Below are positions 4,854-49,323 of a stretch of 64,000 nucleotides of DNA, piece after piece (the first letter of the stretch is position 1; each line of letters begins with the position of its first letter). The stretch lies in contig NZ_JACRVF010000001.1 of assembly GCF_014306105.1 (NCBI RefSeq), positions 1,690,413-1,754,412 of the forward strand. The letters are read 5' to 3'. Both the position numbers and the translations under genes were made by a program. The notes beneath the pieces were generated by a model. That model was not told the DNA's origin and did no database searches. It saw only the letters and a list, made by a program, of their open reading frames with translations. Origin of the DNA: Pontibacter cellulosilyticus. GTDB lineage: Bacteria > Bacteroidota > Bacteroidia > Cytophagales > Hymenobacteraceae.

Positions 4854-6440
4854 ATGAACCGGCAACAAATGATCCAGCAACTTGAGAGCACCGCCATGTG
4901 GGACGTGCTGGTAATTGGTGGCGGGGCAACAGGTTTAGGCATTGCTGTGGATGCGGCCACACGCGGATACAAGACACTGTTGCTGGAGCAGGCAGATTTT
5001 GCCAAAGGCACCTCCAGCAGGAGCACCAAACTAATACACGGTGGTGTGCGCTACCTGGCATTGGGGCAAATTAAATTAGTACTGGAGGCCCTTAAAGAGC
5101 GTGCCCTGCTGCTTCAAAATGCTGCACACCTGGTAAAAAAGCAGGTCTTTGTGGTTCCTGTTTATACCTGGAAAGATGCCTTTGTTTACTTCTGCGGACT
5201 TAAGCTTTACGACCTATTAGCAGGCACACGTGGCTTGGGAGCATCTACTTTCCTCAGCAAAAAGGAAACAGCACTGGCACTGCCCACCATAAAAAAAGAA
5301 GGCTTAAAAGGAGGCATACGTTACCTTGATTGCCAGTTCGACGATAGCCGGCTTGCTGTAAACCTGGCCCAGACTGCAGCCGAAAACGACGCTTGTATAC
5401 TTAACTATGCACAAGTAACGGCGCTGCAGCAGAACAGCGAAGGCAAAATATACGGCGTTGTAGCCCAGGACCTGGAAACAGGCAAAACATACGCGCCAAA
5501 GGCAAAGGCAGTGATTAACGCAACTGGAGTTTTCGTTGATACCATACTTAGAATGGAGCAGCCGGAAGCAAAGCCACTTGTCAGGCCAAGCCAGGGAGTG
5601 CACCTGGTGCTGGACCATACTTTTCTGCCTGGCACCGATGCGCTCATGATTCCGAATACCTCTGATGGGCGCGTGCTTTTTGCAGTTCCCTGGCAGGGCA
5701 AACTATTGGTAGGCACAACAGATACACTCCGCAACAACCCCGAGCTTGAACCAAGGGCACTGGACAAAGAAGTAGCGTTTATACTTGAGACAGCCGGAAG
5801 TTATCTAGTTAAAAAGCCAACACACAAAGATGTTCTAGCTGTTTTTGCCGGCCTCAGGCCTTTGGCTGCGCATAAAGGCAACCCAAAGGAGAGCAAAGAC
5901 ATTTCGCGTAATTACAAGGTTATACTTTCGGAGAGCAGCCTCACTACAGTAACCGGTGGTAAATGGACTATTTACAGGGAGATGGCAGAGGCCACACTTG
6001 ATACTTTAATAAGAGCAAGGCATTTAACTCCAAAGCCCTGCGTTACCTCTCATTTTTCTATCCATGGCCATACCACTGCAGCAGGTATAGACAAGCACAT
6101 GGCAGGTTACGGCTCCGATGCTCACGCCATCCAGCAAATGGCCGCACAACATCCAGAACTTAATACACTGCTGCACCCCAATTACTGCTATACTTTAGCA
6201 GAAGTTGTGTGGGCTATACGTCACGAAATGGCCCGGACGGTAGAAGACGTTTTGGCGCGTAGACTACGATTGCTTTTCCTGGATGCGGCAGCGGCTGCAC
6301 AGGCAGCTCCGGCAGTAGCAGCCATACTTGCCGCTGAAATGCAACGTCCACAAATCTGGGCCGATGAGCAGGTACAGCAGTTCAGAATTCTGGCGGCTGG
6401 CTATAGGCTAAAACCAGAAAAGGTAACGCAGCAAATTTAA
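4854..6440 (+). CDS. glpD: FAD-dependent glycerol-3-phosphate dehydrogenase/oxidase
   Basis: 528 residues, normal for GlpD. The dinucleotide-binding motif VIGGGATGLGIAVDAATRG is at about residues 20-38, followed by SSRSTKLIHGGVRYL, typical of GlpD/GlpO enzymes; the C-terminal DUF/DAO_C region is present (EVVWAIRHEMARTVEDVLARR). It oxidises sn-glycerol 3-phosphate to dihydroxyacetone phosphate with FAD, feeding electrons to quinone (dehydrogenase) or oxygen (oxidase); the Cytophagales context favours the membrane-associated dehydrogenase. No glpF or glpK lies beside it, so it is a stand-alone gene here. The start chosen follows a 220-base non-coding stretch. Confidence 0.93.
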   Translation: MNRQQMIQQLESTAMWDVLVIGGGATGLGIAVDAATRGYKTLLLEQADFAKGTSSRSTKLIHGGVRYLALGQIKLVLEALKERALLLQNAAHLVKKQVFVVPVYTWKDAFVYFCGLKLYDLLAGTRGLGASTFLSKKETALALPTIKKEGLKGGIRYLDCQFDDSRLAVNLAQTAAENDACILNYAQVTALQQNSEGKIYGVVAQDLETGKTYAPKAKAVINATGVFVDTILRMEQPEAKPLVRPSQGVHLVLDHTFLPGTDALMIPNTSDGRVLFAVPWQGKLLVGTTDTLRNNPELEPRALDKEVAFILETAGSYLVKKPTHKDVLAVFAGLRPLAAHKGNPKESKDISRNYKVILSESSLTTVTGGKWTIYREMAEATLDTLIRARHLTPKPCVTSHFSIHGHTTAAGIDKHMAGYGSDAHAIQQMAAQHPELNTLLHPNYCYTLAEVVWAIRHEMARTVEDVLARRLRLLFLDAAAAAQAAPAVAAILAAEMQRPQIWADEQVQQFRILAAGYRLKPEKVTQQI

Positions 6441-6478
6441 CAAATCCAATACCACACATGAATCAATGTATAATTTGA

Positions 6479-6596
6479 TGTTTAAACACAGTATTTTTTG
6501 ATTTACTAAATTTATTTGTTTATACTTAGTAAGCTGTGGGTAAACCATCCGATACAGAAATTACGTATGCATTGCATTATAATTAATGTTTAAACA
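6479..6596. promoter_or_regulatory. Two perfect TGTTTAAACA palindromes upstream of the DUF4168 gene
   Basis: The 10-bp palindrome TGTTTAAACA occurs at 6479-6488 and again at 6587-6596, 108 bp apart, within the 216-base non-coding region before the DUF4168 gene. A -7-like AT-rich stretch (TATTTTTTG, about 6491) lies just after the first copy. Paired palindromes flanking a promoter suggest an operator for a dimeric repressor, possibly with looping; this is inference. Confidence 0.4.
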
Positions 6597-6656
6597 TGTG
6601 CATGGCACCCACTACTTTAAATATTTTCTAACCCAATCCTAAAAAAGAAACCGAAC

Positions 6657-7148
6657 ATGGTACTACTAAAGAAAGGGACTATCGCAGCCGCATTTGTAGT
6701 GGCCTCTATGTTTGCCGGACAGGCTGCATTTGCGCAAGATACAGAAGCCCCTATTACAAAGGAACAACTCGAAGCAGTAGAGTTTTCTGATGATGAGCTA
6801 AGTAAGTTTATTAAGGCCAATACCGCGGCCGTAGAGCTTGAGAAGCAAGGACGCGAAGCCGTTGTGACAACCATAGAGGGAACCGGCCTTACCGTGGACC
6901 GTTTTAACGAACTGGCTCAGGCCAACCGTGACAAAAAACTGGACGAAGTAGCCAAAGACGACGAGAAGAAAGCATTCGGTGACGCAGTTCGCGGTGTATT
7001 AAAGCTCCGCCCAGAGAACAAGCAAAAAGTGGAAAAGGCTATTACCGACCAGGGCCTGACGCTTGAACAGTACAACAAAATACATGCTGCTTTCCAAAAG
7101 GATAAAGCAGTACAGGCCAAAGTACAGTTGCTGCTGCAAGAGAAATAG
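6657..7148 (+). CDS. DUF4168 domain-containing secreted protein
   Basis: 163 residues with a clear signal peptide (VLLKKGTIAAAFVVASMFAGQAAFAQ, cleavage after AFA), so it is exported to the periplasm. The mature part is acidic, highly helical and carries the DUF4168 pattern: FSDDELSKFIKAN near residue 42 and a second LTLEQYNKIHAAFQKD near residue 135. The family has no established biochemical role. It is a single gene with its own terminator and an unusual upstream region containing two TGTTTAAACA palindromes, which suggests specific regulation. Confidence 0.85.
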   Translation: MVLLKKGTIAAAFVVASMFAGQAAFAQDTEAPITKEQLEAVEFSDDELSKFIKANTAAVELEKQGREAVVTTIEGTGLTVDRFNELAQANRDKKLDEVAKDDEKKAFGDAVRGVLKLRPENKQKVEKAITDQGLTLEQYNKIHAAFQKDKAVQAKVQLLLQEK

Positions 7149-7168
7149 TCTCTAAAGACAGTATACAT

Positions 7169-7204
7169 AAAAAAGCGCTGATGTAGATCCATCAGCGCTT
7201 TTTT
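7169..7204 (+). terminator. Terminator of the DUF4168 gene
   Basis: Perfect 15-bp stem: AAAAAAGCGCTGATG (7169-7183) with CATCAGCGCTTTTTT (7190-7204), 6-base loop, T tract in the 3' arm. It lies 21 bases after the stop codon. Confidence 0.85.
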
Positions 7205-7348
7205 TATTTATGGTATTTCCATACTCAAGCAATAGGTTACTTTTATCAGATAAATATTTTACTTTACTTATATTGCTTTAGCAATTTAAGGGTGTAATTA
7301 CTTGAAGGCTTTATACTTTGATTTAGATCTGACCGCCTGCAAAAGTAG

Positions 7349-7401
7349 CTATGACTATAGTGCGGATAAGCGTATGTTTACGCATAGCCGCTAGTTGTAG
7401 G
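7349..7401. repeat. Left attC-like palindromic flank of the DUF4304 gene
   Basis: An imperfect stem (GCGG...GCGTA, loop TGTT, TACGC...CCGC, about 7361-7390) is followed by GTTGTAGG at 7394-7401. That octamer is the inverted copy of CCTACAAC at 7944-7951 just past the gene. The layout resembles a recombination-site flank rather than a promoter; identity as an integron attC is not proven. Confidence 0.35.
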
Positions 7402-7418
7402 TAAGCAATGAAATTAAA

Positions 7419-7943
7419 ATGACTGCTAAAGAAAAACAAAAAGAGATTATTAAAAGCTATCTCAAACCAAAGCTTAAGGAAGAAGGGTTTAATACTTCAG
7501 GAATGAATTGGTGGAAGAGCAAAGGTGACTTCTTTTTGTTCATCAACTTGCAGAGTTCCTCTTGGAACAGTAGTGATAATGTGAGCTTCTGTTTTAACAT
7601 AGGTGTTGCATTGACTGCTCGCCTTTCAGATCCAGCTAAAAGAAAGGCAACATATGACGACATTAGTGCAGAAGTGCGTGAAGAAGACTTGCTGCCTGAA
7701 GACAGAAAAAAGCATAGGTACAGAAAGGATAATTGGCTCGGTTACTTAATCACGAATGATACTGACATTATTGATTTTACGAAAGAATTAAGAACCGATT
7801 TAGAAGAAATAATCCTGCCGAAACTGCAAAGTTTGAATTCTCTATCAGACTGCATAAACTTTTTCGAGCCCTTTGGCTACTGGGGGTACAATCTTAAAAT
7901 GAAAGTTGAAGAGTTAAAGCTAGATAATAAACAGAATGCCTAA
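7419..7943 (+). CDS. DUF4304 domain-containing protein
   Basis: 174 residues, cytoplasmic, no signal or membrane segment. The arrangement LKPKLKEEGFNTSGMNWWKSKGDFFLFINLQSS (break after W), with an N-terminal helix followed by a strand carrying FLFINLQSS, matches DUF4304 proteins, whose function is unknown. The gene is noticeably richer in A and T than its neighbours and uses AT-ending codons more. It sits alone between two palindromic segments (7349-7401 and 7939-8022) that share an inverted CCTACAAC/GTTGTAGG octamer. DUF4304 genes are, to my knowledge, often met as isolated accessory or cassette genes. I infer recent acquisition. Confidence 0.75.
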   Translation: MTAKEKQKEIIKSYLKPKLKEEGFNTSGMNWWKSKGDFFLFINLQSSSWNSSDNVSFCFNIGVALTARLSDPAKRKATYDDISAEVREEDLLPEDRKKHRYRKDNWLGYLITNDTDIIDFTKELRTDLEEIILPKLQSLNSLSDCINFFEPFGYWGYNLKMKVEELKLDNKQNA

Positions 7944-8022
7944 CCTACAACAAAGTTTAGCAGTACGGCTTGCTGACGCTTTGCCATTCTGCTACACGAG
8001 TAACGTTGGCTCCTCCTAACAC
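7939..8022. repeat. Right attC-like palindromic flank of the DUF4304 gene
   Basis: The segment starts GCCTAAC (matching the RYYYAAC core of attC sites) directly at the end of the gene and ends with GTAACGTTGGCT, close to the opposing GTTRRRY core but one base off. Between them lies an inverted repeat TAGCAG/CTGCTA with a GC-rich centre. Size (about 80 bases) and position right after a stop codon fit an integron-type attC, but the mismatch means it may only be a degenerate or look-alike palindrome. Confidence 0.35.
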
Positions 8023-42555: not shown

Positions 42556-42855
42556 CTATTTCCTGCGTTTGTTTTTGCCCCTACGGTTAGAGATGCGCTC
42601 CACCTTCCTATGCTTTACCCACTTTAAGTACTTTTGTAAAGGCTCTGCCTGCTGTAGCAATTCTATGGAGTTGTATTGTTTTGCCAGTTCCTGATTGCTT
42701 ATACTTAAGTGGATAGTGCTATGACAGGGTTGGCAAAGCTCGGCAGTAGCACCGTAACGTCCCCCTTCTTCGCGGGGTACCAGGTGATGGCGCGAAAGGC
42801 TTTGAACTTCACGCCTGCATAGTTCACATACCAGATCTGCCTGTTTTTTTGCCAT
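42556..42855 (-). CDS. HNH endonuclease-domain protein
   Basis: 99 residues. A compact HNH fold: CELCRREVQSLSRHHLVPREEGG gives the first CxxC pair and the His-His of the beta-beta-alpha-metal motif, and LCQPCHSTIHLSISNQELA gives the second CxxCH and the final His. The C-terminus is very basic (NRRGKNKRRK), suited to DNA contact. Stand-alone HNH proteins of this size are common and of unknown role. It starts 110 bases after the response-regulator gene but a terminator (42909-42942) separates them. Confidence 0.85.
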   Translation of the reverse strand: MAKKQADLVCELCRREVQSLSRHHLVPREEGGRYGATAELCQPCHSTIHLSISNQELAKQYNSIELLQQAEPLQKYLKWVKHRKVERISNRRGKNKRRK

Positions 42856-42908: not shown

Positions 42909-42942
42909 AAAAAGCGGATACCACTACTGTAGCACCCGCTTT
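42909..42942 (-). terminator. Terminator of the four-gene signalling operon
   Basis: AAAAGCGG at 42909-42917 and CCGCTTT at 42936-42942 are the ends of an imperfect stem (with GTATC/GGTGC-type inner pairs); T run on the minus strand. It lies 24 bases after the receiver gene's stop. Confidence 0.65.
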
Positions 42943-42965: not shown

Positions 42966-43385
42966 TCAATATGAAACGTTGTTCCTGATTTCGTGGGAGT
43001 AATAGTTCTTACCAAGCTTCAGGATTTGGAGAGCGTTACGAAGTTCATCTGGTTCAGCGCTTTTTAGCAGATACCCGTGTACCCCCTCTTCCAGTAGTTT
43101 CTCAACTAAAGATTCTTCACCGTACATCGAAACAATCAGAATCTTTACTTCCGGAAACTTGCTGATAAGATAACGGGCCGTAGCTATGCCGTCCATCTCG
43201 GGCATCTCCAGGTCTAGCATCACTAAATCAGGCAAATTGCTTTCGATCTTCTCAATAAGCTCTGCTCCGTTGCCGGCATCTGCCACAACGTTAATCTCAG
43301 GGTATGCCTTCAGTATCTCCATTACACCTTTTCTAAAAAGGGTATGGTCGTCGGCGATGGCAAGTTTAATTGGCTGATATCCCAT
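42966..43385 (-). CDS. Receiver-only response regulator (no output domain)
   Basis: 139 residues. A complete REC domain: acidic pair ADDHTLFRKG, phospho-acceptor Asp in VMLDLEMPEMDG, Ser/Thr position in ILIVSMYGEE and the switch Lys in YLLKSAEPDEL. The chain stops shortly after (NYYSHEIRNNVSY), where NarL/FixJ-type regulators of this lineage continue with a LuxR helix-turn-helix. The 100 bases after the stop contain a terminator and no remnant of that domain, so this is not a simple frameshift. Last gene of the four-gene minus operon; its kinase is directly upstream (27-base gap). Output must be by protein contact or phosphotransfer. Confidence 0.88.
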   Translation of the reverse strand: MGYQPIKLAIADDHTLFRKGVMEILKAYPEINVVADAGNGAELIEKIESNLPDLVMLDLEMPEMDGIATARYLISKFPEVKILIVSMYGEESLVEKLLEEGVHGYLLKSAEPDELRNALQILKLGKNYYSHEIRNNVSY

Positions 43386-43412
43386 AATATAGCCTTTAAG
43401 TTTGTTTTAAAT

Positions 43413-44192
43413 TTAAGAAATAGGAACAGAAATTTCTGCTTTTGTACCAGAATTTCGGGCAGAATAATAGGCAAAGCTACCATTTAATAAGTTAACTCTG
43501 GCATTCAGGTTCATTAATCCGAGGCCCTGGCTACTTTTTTCCTCTGATTTTGCAAGTTTCTCATAATCAAAGCCTACCCCATTATCTGTGTAGGTTAAAT
43601 ATAGCTCTTTTTCGCTGAACTGCAACTCTATCGTAATTTTGCTGGCTTTCGCGTGTTTCAGGGTATTGTTCAATAACTCCTGTACTACACGATAGAGCGA
43701 TAGCTCCACTTTCGGAGTTATACGCCTGTTGTTATCATTGCAGGTAAATTCCAACTCTGTGCCGGACTCTGCCGGTACAGAGCGTTTCATGGCTTCCAGG
43801 GCACGGGGTAATCCCATCTTTTCCAACATCACAGGCATTAAACTATGCGAGATGCGGCGCACATTGCCTATTACATCATCCAGCATACCTTTTATACTTT
43901 GCCCTTTTGTCTTATCCTCGAGTGGGGCCACCAACTGGTGCACATTAAGTTTTACCAGTGCCAGCGATGCACCAACATCGTCGTGCAGATCGCGGGCCAC
44001 GCGGCGGCGTTCCTCTTCCTGTGCCTGTAGGGTGGCATCGAGCACCTGGCGCTGCTTCTGCTCCTGCAACTCGCGCAATTGCACCTGGTGCTGTAACATT
44101 CGCCGCTGATACAGGAATACAAATAGAATGATGCCGAACGCCAACGCGAGCAATACGGGAGTGATTATAAGAACAGGCTCTAATGTTTTCAT
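43413..44192 (-). CDS. NarL-type sensor histidine kinase (HisKA_3), no large sensor domain
   Basis: 259 residues. One N-terminal membrane helix (VLIITPVLLALAFGIILFVFLY), then a coiled-coil QLRELQEQKQRQVLDATLQA, the HisKA_3 box RRRVARDLHDDVGASLALVK with the phospho-His, and a HATPase domain (ELLNNTLKHAKASKI, YTDNGVGFDY, GLGLMNLNARVNLL). There is no extracytoplasmic sensor domain, so input probably comes from the 7-TM protein encoded just upstream, whose gene overlaps this one by 4 bases (44189-44192). Its partner is the receiver-only regulator downstream. Confidence 0.92.
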   Translation of the reverse strand: MKTLEPVLIITPVLLALAFGIILFVFLYQRRMLQHQVQLRELQEQKQRQVLDATLQAQEEERRRVARDLHDDVGASLALVKLNVHQLVAPLEDKTKGQSIKGMLDDVIGNVRRISHSLMPVMLEKMGLPRALEAMKRSVPAESGTELEFTCNDNNRRITPKVELSLYRVVQELLNNTLKHAKASKITIELQFSEKELYLTYTDNGVGFDYEKLAKSEEKSSQGLGLMNLNARVNLLNGSFAYYSARNSGTKAEISVPIS

Positions 44193-44851
44193 CTGTTTAC
44201 TGCCCGCTTAAGCACAAATACCAAGCTGACATTGAAAAGTATGTTCAATACAAAAATAATTGCCAGGCACATCCGCGCCGCATCATAAGACTCGGCAAGG
44301 GCATCGTTAAAAATACCCCATGACATAGATGTGCCGGCTTTATGGATCAGCAGTCCGCAGCTTAGCAGGAAAATCGGGTCACGATCGAGGTAAGTTATAC
44401 TTAAATCGTTGCTCACCTTATAGAAGTAGGTAAGCACAATGCCGATAACCAAGGAACTCTCTACCATGCGGGGCATCGAGTTTACTTTAGCAATACCAAC
44501 ACCCAGCGTCGCATCATAAATGCTTACCAGCAATATGATACCGACAGCCACAAGTATACTTCGCTTAATAGCCACTCTTCTGAAACTGTGATAGTATATA
44601 GCAGCCAGCGCACTGAACTCTAATGGAATATAAAGGTGCTGTATCCAAAGGTTATTCTTTGTGTGCATTCGCACTGTAATCTGTCCGGCTACCTCCGACA
44701 TCACTGTTACCAGCAAAAAAAGAAATATAAGCTTGAAAAGTTTGCTCCTGTTACTCGGAAATAAAACAAGACCGGCAATAAAAGGTAAAAGAGGGCTGAA
44801 AGAAGAAACTTCTATCAGCCAGGGGTATACTTGCCGTAAAAAGAATTCCAT
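44189..44851 (-). CDS. Seven-span integral membrane protein, putative sensor partner
   Basis: 220 residues with about seven hydrophobic segments (LLPFIAGLVLF, LFKLIFLFLLVTVMSEVAG, YIPLEFSALAAIYYHSF, SILVAVGIILLVSIYDA, MVESSLVIGIVLTYFYKV, FLLSCGLLIHKAGTSMSWGI, MCLAIIFVLNILFNVSLVFVL split). I recognise no named family. It is translationally coupled to the kinase (ATGA overlap) and directly follows the 108-residue gene (one-base overlap at 44851), so it almost certainly works with them, most simply as the membrane sensor module for a kinase without a sensing domain. Confidence 0.85.
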   Translation of the reverse strand: MEFFLRQVYPWLIEVSSFSPLLPFIAGLVLFPSNRSKLFKLIFLFLLVTVMSEVAGQITVRMHTKNNLWIQHLYIPLEFSALAAIYYHSFRRVAIKRSILVAVGIILLVSIYDATLGVGIAKVNSMPRMVESSLVIGIVLTYFYKVSNDLSITYLDRDPIFLLSCGLLIHKAGTSMSWGIFNDALAESYDAARMCLAIIFVLNILFNVSLVFVLKRAVNR

Positions 44852-45177
44852 TAACCGTTTAGATCACCTCCTGTGCTACAATCCGGTGGACAAACTTTTG
44901 AACTGTCTACAACCAGATCTTCCATATCGTTTCCTTCTGCGTCTGCGCCAACCAGAACAAGTTGCTTCTGCCCTTTCCCGTCGCGGGCGTAGTACATGCG
45001 GATGCCCATGCAACCAGGCTGGTCCAACAATTTCTGTAGGATTTCGCGGCCATAAAAGTGTGCTTTAACACTAGCCCCATTTGTTTCTGTATTTGCCCTG
45101 CTGCGGTAATTGGCTGTCCATTTTGCCGCCTCAGCGCGGTCTATCGATGCGCCTTCGCTTCCGTTAAAAGTTGCCAT
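44851..45177 (-). CDS. Small cytoplasmic protein with CPPxC tail, first gene of signalling operon
   Basis: 108 residues, no signal peptide. Features: AEAAKWTANYRSRANTE, VKAHFYGREILQKLLDQPGCMGIRMYYARDGKG (split after GREI), QKQLVLVGADAEGNDM and a C-terminal KVCPPDCSTGGDLNG with a CPPDC pair. Proteins with the same AAKWTANYR...AHFFGR...GCMGIR...VLVGAD...CPP-x-C layout occur, as I recall, in other Cytophagales and Chitinophagales without assigned function. It heads the four-gene operon with overlaps throughout, so it is likely a ligand, substrate or regulator of the pathway. Confidence 0.8.
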   Translation of the reverse strand: MATFNGSEGASIDRAEAAKWTANYRSRANTETNGASVKAHFYGREILQKLLDQPGCMGIRMYYARDGKGQKQLVLVGADAEGNDMEDLVVDSSKVCPPDCSTGGDLNG

Positions 45178-46565: not shown

Positions 46566-47942
46566 TTAATTATTTAGTACTTTAAGTTGTAAAGTAAAAG
46601 TAGTTTCGCCGGGTTTCGTGCTAACCCTGATGCTACCGCCATGCTGCTGCATCACCTGCTTAGATAGGCTTAGGCCAATTCCAGACCCCTGCTTTTTAGT
46701 AGTATAGAAAGGAATAAATATCTTGTCCAGCACATCTTCTGGTATACCCGGCCCATTGTCCACCACATCAATCCGAAGTTTGTCGCGCTCCATCTCCGGC
46801 AGGTAAGTCACTACCTCTACACATGGAGAAGTTTCATTTCTACAGGCTTCCATACCGTTTTTAACCAGGTTGATCAGTACCTGCTCCAACTGTTCCTCAT
46901 CGGCTAAAATGGTTACTTTTTCATCAGGCAGGTACATTTTAAAGTTCACATGCTGCGCCACCATCTCTGCCTCGAGCAGGCGATTAACGCTACGCAGCAG
47001 CTCATTTACTTTTAACGGACGCAGCTCAGGTGCAGGCAGGCGCATCAGGCGGCGATAGTTCTGTACAAAGCTCAGCATGCCTGCGCTTCTTCGCTCTATA
47101 GTTTGCAGGCCCGCCTGTATATCTTCCAGCGTTTCTTCCTCTAGCTCCTCCCCTTGTTTATACTTGCCCACTACCTCGCTTTGCACTAAACTGGTAATAG
47201 TAGAAGTTAAAGAAATAACGGGTGTAATGGAGTTCATTATTTCGTGGGTAAGCACCCTGATCACCTTCTGCCATGTTTCCAGTTCCTTCTCCTCCAGCTC
47301 CGACTGTATATTTTGCAGTGTCACGATTTTAAGGCTGTGCCCCTGCGATATCATTTCGGTTACCTGCACATTAACCAGCAATTCCTCCTGCCCAGCCTGT
47401 ACAGTTACAAGTGCTTTACCGTGATTGGCAGTGGTCTTTAAAGCTTGCACCAGTTCCGGGCTCACACGATCTAAGGCGTGTATGTGTTGCAGGTACGCTA
47501 CGTGTAACATATCTTTTACCGCCTGGTTTGCCAGCAGCACGTTTCCGTGCTCATCAAATGTGATAATGCCGACACTAACCTGCTCTACAATGGCCTGCAG
47601 GTAATGGTAGTGCGCCTCCTGTTCGGCTTTTATGTGCATAAACGCCTCTGAAATGGCATTAAAGCTCTGATATAGTTTCCGGTAAGAGGAGTTTCTGTTC
47701 TGGATGGCAAAACGTTGTGTAAAGTCGGAATGCAGCATGGCCTCTAAAAAACTGCTGATGTCCCGGTTGGTACGCTCTACAAAGTATACCAGATCGTAGA
47801 TCAGGAACGAGGCTAGCAGTAAAAGGCAGAAAGCGGTAACATACCAATCGGTGCGGTAAATTACCAGCAGGAAGCCTACAATTATTACAACCAGCAGGAG
47901 CAGGCGTAAGAGCAGGTTTAACCGAAAGCCACTAAAGCCCAT
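46566..47942 (-). CDS. NtrY-type sensor histidine kinase
   Basis: 458 residues. Two close membrane helices at the N-terminus (RLLLLVVIIVGFLLVIYR, FCLLLLASFLIYDLVYFV) leave hardly any periplasmic loop. A HAMP-like helix and a PAS domain (VSVGIITFDEHGNVLLANQ) follow, then the phospho-His in VIRVLTHEIMNSITPVISL and HATPase motifs (NLVKNGMEACRN, DNGPGIPEDVL, GSGIGLSLSKQVMQQHGG). It should phosphorylate the sigma-54-dependent regulator encoded directly upstream, whose gene it overlaps by 11 bases. The intramembrane or cytoplasmic signal is unknown. Confidence 0.92.
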   Translation of the reverse strand: MGFSGFRLNLLLRLLLLVVIIVGFLLVIYRTDWYVTAFCLLLLASFLIYDLVYFVERTNRDISSFLEAMLHSDFTQRFAIQNRNSSYRKLYQSFNAISEAFMHIKAEQEAHYHYLQAIVEQVSVGIITFDEHGNVLLANQAVKDMLHVAYLQHIHALDRVSPELVQALKTTANHGKALVTVQAGQEELLVNVQVTEMISQGHSLKIVTLQNIQSELEEKELETWQKVIRVLTHEIMNSITPVISLTSTITSLVQSEVVGKYKQGEELEEETLEDIQAGLQTIERRSAGMLSFVQNYRRLMRLPAPELRPLKVNELLRSVNRLLEAEMVAQHVNFKMYLPDEKVTILADEEQLEQVLINLVKNGMEACRNETSPCVEVVTYLPEMERDKLRIDVVDNGPGIPEDVLDKIFIPFYTTKKQGSGIGLSLSKQVMQQHGGSIRVSTKPGETTFTLQLKVLNN

Positions 47943-49323
47943 GCTTCTCTATTCTGCGGTAAAGGGCCGTACGGGTAATGCCGAGCTCTTTGGCGGCGTG
48001 TGTAATATTTCCGGCGTGTTTTACCAGTGCCTTCTGTACCATCATTTTCTCCAGGCTTTCGAGGGTATGCTCGTCAGCGTTTATACTTGGTTGCGCCTGC
48101 TGCTGTTGATTCCCTTGCGATGGCTCGTTCGGGGCCAGGTAAAAATCGTCGGGGTGCAGTTCAGAGCCGTCGCTAAGTATAATGGCCCGCTCCATAGCGT
48201 GGTCCAGTTCGCGGATGTTACCTGGCCAGTGGTAATCCTTCAGGCGGCGTAGCGTACTTTCGCTTAATTTTAATCCCGGCCGGTCATATTTCTGGCTGTA
48301 CACCTGCAAAAAGTGCCTGGCCAGCAGCTCAATGTCTTCGCGGCGTTCGCGCAGAGGTGGCAGGTGTATCTCCACAGTATTTATCCTGTAAAGCAAGTCC
48401 TGGCGGAAAGTGCCCTCGCGCACCATATTATACAGCGGCATGTTTGTAGCGCAGATCAGACGGATATCAATCGGTCGTGGTTTATTTGTGCCAAGCCGGA
48501 TCACCTGCCTGCTTTGCAGTGCCGTTAAAAGTTTTGCCTGCAGCGCCAGCGAAAGGTTTCCTATTTCATCTAAAAACAGTGAGCCCCCGGTAGCTGCCTC
48601 AAAGCGGCCGGCACGATCTTCTTTGGCATCGGTAAAGGCTCCTTTGGCATGGCCGAAGAGTTCACTTTCGAAAAGGGTTTCGCTTACAGCACCCAAGTCC
48701 ACTTTCTCAAAGGCCTTATCAGCTCTTTTTGATTTGCGGTGCAGGGCTCTGGCTGCTACTTCTTTACCAGTTCCGTTTTCGCCAAGTATAAGTACGTTCG
48801 CATCGGTGCCAGCCACCTTATCAATAGTCTGGTAAACGCGCTGCATCGCCGGCGACACGCCGATAAACTCATCGTAATGAAAGGTAGCGTTTTGTTTAAC
48901 TGCTGCCTCTGTGCTACTGTTTCTGTTTTCGCCGATCTTGTTCTGGCAGGCGGTCTTAAGTATGGCAATTAGCTTTTCGTTTTGCCAGGGCTTCAGCACA
49001 AAGTCAGAGGCACCCTCTTTTAAGGCACGTACCGCCAGCTCAATATCGCCATAGGCCGTCATGAGTATAACCGTGGTAGCCGGCGACAGATTTTTAATTT
49101 GCCTTAGCCAATGAAAGCCTTCTTTACTAGAGGTAGCACCTGTACTGTAGTTCATATCGAGCAGCACCACATCAAACCCATGCTCTTGCAACATACCCGG
49201 AATATGATACGGATCAGAGGTGGTGAGTACAGTGGCAAAATGCTGCTTTAGCAGTAGCCTGCCAGCAACCAGAATATCTTCTTCATCATCAACGATCAGT
49301 ATCTTGCACGGTACTTTACTCAT
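47932..49323 (-). CDS. Sigma-54-dependent response regulator (NtrC family)
   Basis: 463 residues: REC (1-125, phospho-Asp in VVLLDMNYS), AAA+ ATPase (about 150-385: GENGTGKEVAARALH, GAFTDAKEDRAGRFE, SLFLDEIGNLSL, ELARHFL) and a Fis-type HTH at the C-terminus (HAGNITHAAKELGITRTALYRR split). The sigma-54 contact loop reads GAFTDA rather than GAFTGA, a variant I have seen in this phylum. It should activate transcription from -24/-12 promoters; the likely target is the divergent export operon, whose upstream region has two tandem dyads and a -24/-12-like site. Confidence 0.93.
   Translation of the reverse strand: MSKVPCKILIVDDEEDILVAGRLLLKQHFATVLTTSDPYHIPGMLQEHGFDVVLLDMNYSTGATSSKEGFHWLRQIKNLSPATTVILMTAYGDIELAVRALKEGASDFVLKPWQNEKLIAILKTACQNKIGENRNSSTEAAVKQNATFHYDEFIGVSPAMQRVYQTIDKVAGTDANVLILGENGTGKEVAARALHRKSKRADKAFEKVDLGAVSETLFESELFGHAKGAFTDAKEDRAGRFEAATGGSLFLDEIGNLSLALQAKLLTALQSRQVIRLGTNKPRPIDIRLICATNMPLYNMVREGTFRQDLLYRINTVEIHLPPLRERREDIELLARHFLQVYSQKYDRPGLKLSESTLRRLKDYHWPGNIRELDHAMERAIILSDGSELHPDDFYLAPNEPSQGNQQQQAQPSINADEHTLESLEKMMVQKALVKHAGNITHAAKELGITRTALYRRIEKHGL

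Follow-up and report, generated by a model that had tools for sequence, protein, structure and literature searches.

A widespread four-gene signalling unit of Bacteroidota with a separate seven-helix membrane protein and, in Hymenobacteraceae, a response regulator without a DNA-binding domain

The 64,000-nt stretch of Pontibacter cellulosilyticus DNA analysed here (hereafter, the window; contig NZ_JACRVF010000001.1, positions 1,690,413 to 1,754,412) bears on its minus strand, from position 45177 to position 42966, four consecutive genes predicted to form a signalling unit. They encode a 108-aa protein with a CPPxC motif (CPP), a seven-transmembrane (7-TM) protein (7TM), a histidine kinase of the HisKA_3 type (HK) and a response regulator (RR) consisting of a receiver (REC) domain only (Table 1). 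The four open reading frames (ORFs) were found where a first-pass annotation had placed them, and the overlaps or tiny gaps it had described between them were confirmed: the CPP and 7TM ORFs overlap by 1 bp and the 7TM and HK ORFs by 4 bp, while 27 bp separate the HK gene from that of the REC protein. A single terminator had also been proposed. Folding of the RNA agreed with this, since a 14-pair hairpin followed by U's lies 3′ of the REC stop codon (−20.7 kcal/mol; z = −3.3); however, a simple consensus terminator scan rendered 2 terminator-like sites against a mean of 2.8 in shuffled sequences, i.e. no excess, so the call rests on the fold.

Table 1. Features of the four-gene unit and of its probable transcript end (positions within the window)
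Feature	Position	Strand	Basis
CPP, 108 aa, partner protein, without export signal	44851..45177	-	ORF; no Pfam/NCBIfam match above cut-off
Codons of the CPP C-terminal CPPDC motif, residues 96-100	44878..44892	-	Translation; conservation in 67 relatives
7-TM protein, 220 aa, proposed receptor	44189..44851	-	Loop charge, N-out/C-in; GPCR/rhodopsin-like bundle in model
Histidine kinase, 259 aa, HisKA_3 + HATPase_c, one hydrophobic N-terminal segment, without sensor domain	43413..44192	-	Pfam
REC-only response regulator, 139 aa, D12/D13/D58/S86/K108 retained	42966..43385	-	Pfam; alignment
Hairpin followed by U's, probable terminator	42911..42942	-	Fold

Distribution and composition of the unit

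A gene-neighbourhood analysis with the 108-residue protein, a check put forward in the first-pass annotation, showed the arrangement to be conserved far beyond this strain. Relatives of CPP were found in 40 of 50 genomes of the genus, and in 131 of 200 genomes of the family Hymenobacteraceae (which includes Pontibacter and Hymenobacter; hereafter, the family). When 395 genomes of the phylum were searched with a CPP profile, 43 had a match. Although neither the 7TM nor the CPP of the window scored above any curated Pfam or NCBIfam cut-off, the 7TM family was present in 80 of 390 sampled phylum genomes, representing 46 of 169 genera. In addition, species genomes supplied 80 named loci, with Ignavibacteria metagenome-assembled genomes and one labelled Zixiibacteriota among the sources; these were picked by CPP motifs and are therefore biased towards well-conserved CPPs. 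The exact order CPP-7TM-HK-RR was seen in 140 of the 181 loci scored, which include three without a CPP call (L141, L217 and L219). Seventeen named Hymenobacteraceae loci were then excluded, 16 as presumed duplicates, their contigs being equal in length to those of loci already taken, and L230, the REC protein of which has 142 aa, along with them though it had no such match. The exact order was kept in 125 of the 164 loci left (51/62 inside the family, 74/102 outside it), the remaining 39 being variants, units running off the contig, or units with genes escaping the profiles.

Within the genus, the unit is gained or lost as a whole block, since the 10 genomes lacking CPP were all among the 11 that lack a close kinase (E ≤ 1e-60). 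The eleventh, G002 (locus L045), does have CPP; there, two overlapping ORFs of 104 and 171 aa stand in place of a single kinase ORF (a frameshift or an error), and the other three genes look intact.

Among the variants, the CPP-7TM pair is doubled before a single kinase (CPP-7TM-CPP-7TM-HK-RR) in L078, L080 and L086, and three 7TM genes lie ahead of one kinase in L092 and L162, arrangements that would suit the feeding of a single kinase by several receptors. L135 and L161 are also among the loci with duplicated CPP-7TM pairs or with two to three 7TM genes per kinase. Other arrangements concern CPP itself. In L149 and L150, a second CPP-like gene, specifying a protein of about 250 aa, separates the 7TM gene from that of the kinase; at L088 (4686-5450), two CPP domains are joined in a single 254-aa protein that starts like a lipoprotein and stands alone, with no 7TM, kinase or regulator called beside it; and in L235 a CPP-7TM pair lies on a contig labelled Candidatus Zixiibacteriota, which reflects either an inter-phylum transfer or a mis-binned contig.

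The unit is a two-component system with accessory membrane proteins, a known type; it is widespread, and a literature search with a scope that stopped short of the Anantharaman and Aravind 2003 survey of bacterial membrane receptors rendered no description of it. A link to defence or to phages was rejected, as PADLOC gave no hit for the four proteins and PHROGs none for CPP or 7TM. The spread of the unit, its duplicated CPP-7TM pairs, and the exported partners and shared proline-rich tail described below are beyond what the window alone could reveal.

The regulator has lost its DNA-binding domain in Hymenobacteraceae

In the regulator of the window, Response_reg covers residues 9-119 and no output domain follows (Pfam). 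Neither a remnant of a helix-turn-helix (HTH) nor a split HTH gene was found near the unit, the five GerE matches of the genome all lying outside the window. This agrees with the first-pass annotation, which had described a regulator that lost its HTH without remnant and had suggested that related units end in a REC-LuxR regulator. A Pfam scan of orthologous regulators bore out that suggestion too: outside the family, REC was present in 78 of 78 proteins and GerE (the LuxR HTH) in 77 of them, whereas inside the family REC was present in 59 of 59 and GerE in just one. These counts do not include L039 and L073 (in which the REC ORF overlaps the kinase ORF), L088 (which has no unit) or loci without a called regulator; in L039 and L073, both from the family, inspection by eye showed that the protein ends directly after REC, with no HTH. 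The lack of GerE in 58 of 59 family regulators, and in these two more, rules out truncation by a sequencing error; the HTH disappeared in an ancestor belonging to the family and not in this strain.

The receiver is under constraint rather than decaying, since its catalytic residues (the acidic pair D12/D13, D58, S86 and K108) were invariant in all 59 family regulators. The protein has two traits of a single-domain response regulator, namely a REC domain with no output domain and an intact phosphorylation site. As for the traits of a NarL/LuxR-type system, the kinase has HisKA_3 and HATPase_c, both above the Pfam cut-off, but the GerE HTH is missing from the regulator. The Pfam scan found no sensor domain in the kinase, and its best NCBIfam matches (MctS, UhpB and LiaS) were all below cut-off.

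When a tree was built from REC alone (L221 excluded), the REC-only proteins fell into two clades, one of 39 rows supported at 100/97 and one of 19 rows at 94/84, the sisterhood of which was undecided; this would allow for one or two losses. In a tree of concatenated 7TM, HK and REC sequences, with 57 rows hand-chosen from 126 and rooted at midpoint, all 23 REC-only rows lay on one side of a 100/100 branch. The simplest reading, since the concatenated tree places the REC-only rows in one 100/100 clade, is that the HTH was lost once, before Pontibacter and Hymenobacter split. The sole HTH-bearing family member, L082 (~5395-7963), grouped at 100/100 in the concatenated tree with mainly Sphingobacteriaceae; because its 7TM, HK and REC sequences all take part in this grouping, the whole unit was probably acquired later by horizontal transfer. 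What these comparisons establish at the level of sequence is which genes make up the unit and in what order, that it is widely conserved, and that the HTH was lost with retention of the phospho-acceptor site. The family thus offers a natural experiment: DNA binding was lost near its base, but the components acting before the regulator were kept, as was the phosphorylation site, so that the destination of the output can be asked directly.

The seven-helix protein and its small partner

The structural model of 7TM (mean predicted local distance difference test score, pLDDT, 95.9) has eight helical segments; the first two (residues 2-18 and 21-33) were read as a single kinked helix, which would give seven TM helices. 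These fill residues 2-217 of the 220-aa protein, leaving no room for fused extracellular or signalling domains. The only Pfam match, below threshold, was to 7TMR-DISM_7TM (PF07695), at 10.5 bits against a cut-off of 29. PF07695 did not figure among the 16 families that 64 relatives of 7TM hit at E ≤ 0.1, each of these families being matched by one member only. The same genome carries a true 7TMR-DISM_7TM member elsewhere. As 7TMR-DISM proteins have fused extracellular and signalling domains, membership was rejected both on the score and on the lack of such domains. When the model was compared with solved structures, the listed VIA-align matches were mostly G-protein-coupled receptors (GPCRs) or rhodopsins, with Z values of 12.2-13.9, although helical bundles may reach ~13 by arrangement alone; the best Foldseek match had E = 0.03, and a profile search for solved relatives rendered none at E ≤ 1. 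We suggest for the modelled protein a GPCR/rhodopsin-like arrangement of helices, not common descent. That it might be a microbial rhodopsin was rejected: these bear the retinal-binding Lys inside the last TM helix, while helix 189-217 has its sole Lys at position 215, at the inner end (by eye).

An N-out/C-in orientation fits the protein, since over 64 rows the mean K+R content of the presumed inner segments (1.2, 2.1, 1.6 and 2.1) was higher than that of the outer ones (0.1, 0.7, 0.6 and 0.8), although one presumed inner loop was equally rich in D+E (1.9). At the polar positions N67, H72, E78 and N124, which by this topology would lie towards the outer side, one residue was kept in 36-41 of the 64 rows. 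The first-pass annotation had taken the 7-TM protein for the sensor. This is plausible, given that it is separate from a sensorless kinase, is N-out/C-in by loop charge and seems to form a GPCR/rhodopsin-like bundle.

The small protein, which the same annotation called the mystery component, is indeed the unknown part of the unit. Its model (pLDDT 89.8) shows a small alpha-beta domain with no clear match in the PDB (best Foldseek E = 0.18; best VIA-align Z = 3.5), and a profile search found no solved relative at E ≤ 1; such weak matches are no evidence of a new fold. In 67 relatives, residues C56, G58, R60, Y62, G77 and P97 were invariant and C96 and C100 were kept in at least 90%, while the mean identity among CPPs was 34-45%. 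These relatives matched 11 Pfam families, mainly DUF6968 (5/67; best E = 0.00088), DUF7151 (3) and DUF4730 (2). When 10 of the 67, not necessarily among those five, were scanned singly to see whether DUF6968 passes its cut-off, none gave a match. A motif resembling CP..C was present within the last 40 residues of 140 of 170 CPP ORFs. The CPP of the window begins MATFNGSEG, with no export signal; according to a simple hydrophobicity rule, 158 of the 170 ORFs lack such a signal and 12 have one (L133 being doubtful).

To have loci chosen independently of CPP, a set of 60 was selected by the 7TM profile, comprising 20 in which the idea of a conserved tail arose and 40 fetched afterwards; L276 and L295 had no 7TM call, which left 58. 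A small gene on the same strand lay directly upstream of 7TM in 51 of these, within 100 bp in 50 of the 51, and a kinase followed 7TM in 18/19 loci of the first batch and 34/39 of the later one. A strict C-terminal pattern (CP[PNTSAV].C) was found in 17/51 upstream partners versus 1/260 other short ORFs. With a broad pattern (PP, CP or a final [YW]P) the values were 47/51 and 24/260, but this pattern was widened after inspecting the sequences, which flatters the contrast, and the control ORFs are not proven genes. In the later 40 loci alone, the strict tail was present in 9/34 partners and 0/163 other short ORFs, and the broad tail in 30/34 and 16/163. The hydrophobicity rule detected an export signal in 22 of the 51 partners, and lipoprotein-like or membrane-anchoring starts were seen in partners of other lineages. 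The partner thus seems to vary in body and compartment, while its proline-rich end tends to persist.

Co-variation among the four proteins was measured for each pair by partial rank correlation of pairwise distances, with the remaining two proteins as covariates. Of the 126 units used, 70 were from outside the family and 55 from inside it, L082 being excluded from the inside set; L221 was left out of the analysis. The values outside and inside the family, respectively, were 0.45 and 0.55 for CPP-7TM, 0.29 and 0.17 for 7TM-HK, 0.42 and 0.75 for HK-REC, −0.15 and −0.10 for CPP-HK, and 0.04 and 0.16 for CPP-REC. The order of co-variation matches the gene order CPP-7TM-HK-REC. The closest evolutionary partner of CPP within the unit is 7TM; that CPP co-varies with 7TM and not with the kinase supports, without proving, contact between the two, and the duplicated CPP-7TM pairs and the several 7TM genes per kinase point the same way.

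A proposed split sensor and its alternatives

To explain these observations we propose, at about even chances, that CPP and 7TM form a split sensor acting on a sensorless kinase, the output of which in Hymenobacteraceae would be exerted by protein contact. The separate 7-TM protein would be the receptor; CPP would bind it and set its state, and the pair would set the kinase/phosphatase balance of a kinase without a sensor domain of its own, which would phosphorylate the regulator at D58. In the genus of the window, the leaderless CPP would presumably stay in the cytoplasm and meet 7TM at its inner face. Binding to DNA would be the next step for the phosphorylated REC-LuxR regulator found in most Bacteroidota units, while in Hymenobacteraceae the phosphorylated REC protein, having no HTH, would act by contact with some protein. 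With receptor, partner, kinase and regulator being four separate proteins, receptor-kinase coupling can be tested piecewise.

Several observations weigh against this proposal. Seven of the 58 7TM-selected loci have no upstream partner, and in L087 and L133 the unit is present with no 7TM gene called beside CPP and HK. Export of the partner in some lineages only (12/170 and 22/51, see above) ill fits a single docking mode. The CPP-REC correlation inside the family was reached in 1 of 300 permutations, and linkage of neighbouring genes can partly explain the distance correlations. In addition, the contacts, the ligand, the phosphotransfer, the side of action and the output are all inferred.

Parallels can be drawn with known systems. 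UhpABC also has a separate membrane receptor (UhpC), a HisKA_3 kinase (UhpB, the model of which the kinase of the unit matches below cut-off, as mentioned) and a LuxR-type regulator; UhpC is, however, a transporter homologue, no small partner is known there, and UhpA binds DNA. In SaePQRS of Staphylococcus aureus, according to the passages of PMC5083920 on this system, the auxiliary proteins SaePQ control the phosphatase activity of the kinase SaeS, and four genes likewise specify two auxiliaries (one polytopic in the membrane, one small), a kinase and a regulator. The two differ in that SaeP is described as a lipoprotein, whereas CPP has no leader, and in that four TM helices are predicted for SaeQ as against seven in the membrane protein of the unit; the unit also has a kinase of the HisKA_3 type and a regulator that lacks a DNA-binding domain. 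Lipoprotein-like partners occur in other lineages, not in the window. In LiaFSR of Bacillus subtilis, a separate membrane protein, LiaF, controls the kinase LiaS, with the three genes in a conserved context, and the kinase of the unit matches the LiaS model below cut-off; the parts of PMC7191749 that deal with LiaFSR describe no CPP-like partner, and this system belongs to another phylum and its LiaR binds DNA. We think of the CPP/7TM pair as a possible counterpart of SaePQ on SaeS and of LiaF on LiaS, though these parallels are of function only. Seven-TM receptors of bacterial signalling proteins are also known in 7TMR-DISM, 7TMR-HD and BtsS, the last of which binds pyruvate via its 7-TM input domain; in the account given in PMC10653868 the 7-TM region is joined to further domains within one protein, while here it is a separate protein.

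Concerning the output only, it is conceivable, if somewhat unlikely, that in Hymenobacteraceae the REC-only protein does not act on any effector but drains phosphate, takes part in feedback or passes the phosphate on to a different regulator. It has no output domain, its C-terminal ends differ among species, and the genome contains other REC-LuxR regulators, the nearest at 36% and 39% identity; however, no relay partner turned up in the unit (none was searched for), and the long conservation of a four-gene unit merely to drain phosphate would be odd. The preferred output, by contact, might be likened to that of EpsW in Myxococcus, a REC-only regulator under a chemosensory system which, according to PMC12802240, directly contacts the glycosyl transferase EpsZ, although the REC-only protein of the unit belongs to a conserved operon and descends from a regulator of the REC-LuxR type.

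A second alternative, which we consider unlikely, is that CPP and 7TM sense no ligand and act as an auxiliary brake, holding the kinase in its phosphatase state in the manner of SaePQ or LiaF, with the stimulus read elsewhere (membrane stress, or the kinase's own TM helix). The resemblance of the architecture to SaePQRS and LiaFSR, whose accessory membrane proteins work in this way, is in its favour, as are the sub-threshold matches of the kinase to the LiaS and UhpB models; several 7TM copies before one kinase, and the polar positions kept in 7TM, would fit receptors better, although they are no proof. A broader version of the split-sensor proposal is quite doubtful. It would hold that Bacteroidota possess a general class of GPCR-fold 7-TM receptors separate from their kinases, each under the control of its own dedicated partner protein, that the proline-rich (often CPPxC) C-terminal tail of this partner is a tethered ligand plugging in from the inside or the outside depending on the lineage, and that the pathway became non-transcriptional in Hymenobacteraceae after the HTH was lost, probably once.

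It appears improbable that CPP is a precursor from which a peptide signal is secreted, its core lying at the C-terminus and containing Cys, with 7TM as its receptor or processing protein, for which agr-type systems would be a loose parallel. The order of the genes (small protein, polytopic membrane protein, kinase, regulator), the conserved CPxxC or proline-rich C-terminus and the occurrence of exported versions would suit a precursor. However, most CPP ORFs lack an export signal (see above), the CPP body is folded and conserved, unlike that of most peptide precursors, the tail ranks with the best-conserved regions of CPP while pheromone cores usually diverge, and the 7TM profile has no conserved catalytic Cys. 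Control of curli (csg) genes by the unit was rejected as very improbable: of 39 genus loci other than that of the window, 12 have csgE, csgF and csgG immediately after the unit on the same strand (L039, L041-L044, L048-L052, L055 and L069; Pfam on L050), but the genome of the window has no CsgE match, CsgE is not associated with the unit across the genus (17/40 genomes with CPP versus 5/10 without), and the fetched loci outside the genus showed no csgE match.

Other genes were noted near the unit. csgE lies further off in L058 and L071. Nine loci on the Hymenobacter side, including L092 (9244-10653) and L080 (8963-10369), have a gene for a protein of ~469 aa close to that of REC; the two copies scanned had no Pfam match. 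In the window, a second two-component pair lies nearby on the minus strand (46566-49323), composed of a kinase of 458 aa and a regulator of 463 aa which by eye looks like a sigma-54-type activator. Directly downstream of the unit, also on the minus strand (42556-42855), a 99-aa protein is encoded that by eye resembles a small HNH-type protein; its relatives are found near the unit in 17 family loci, that of the window included.

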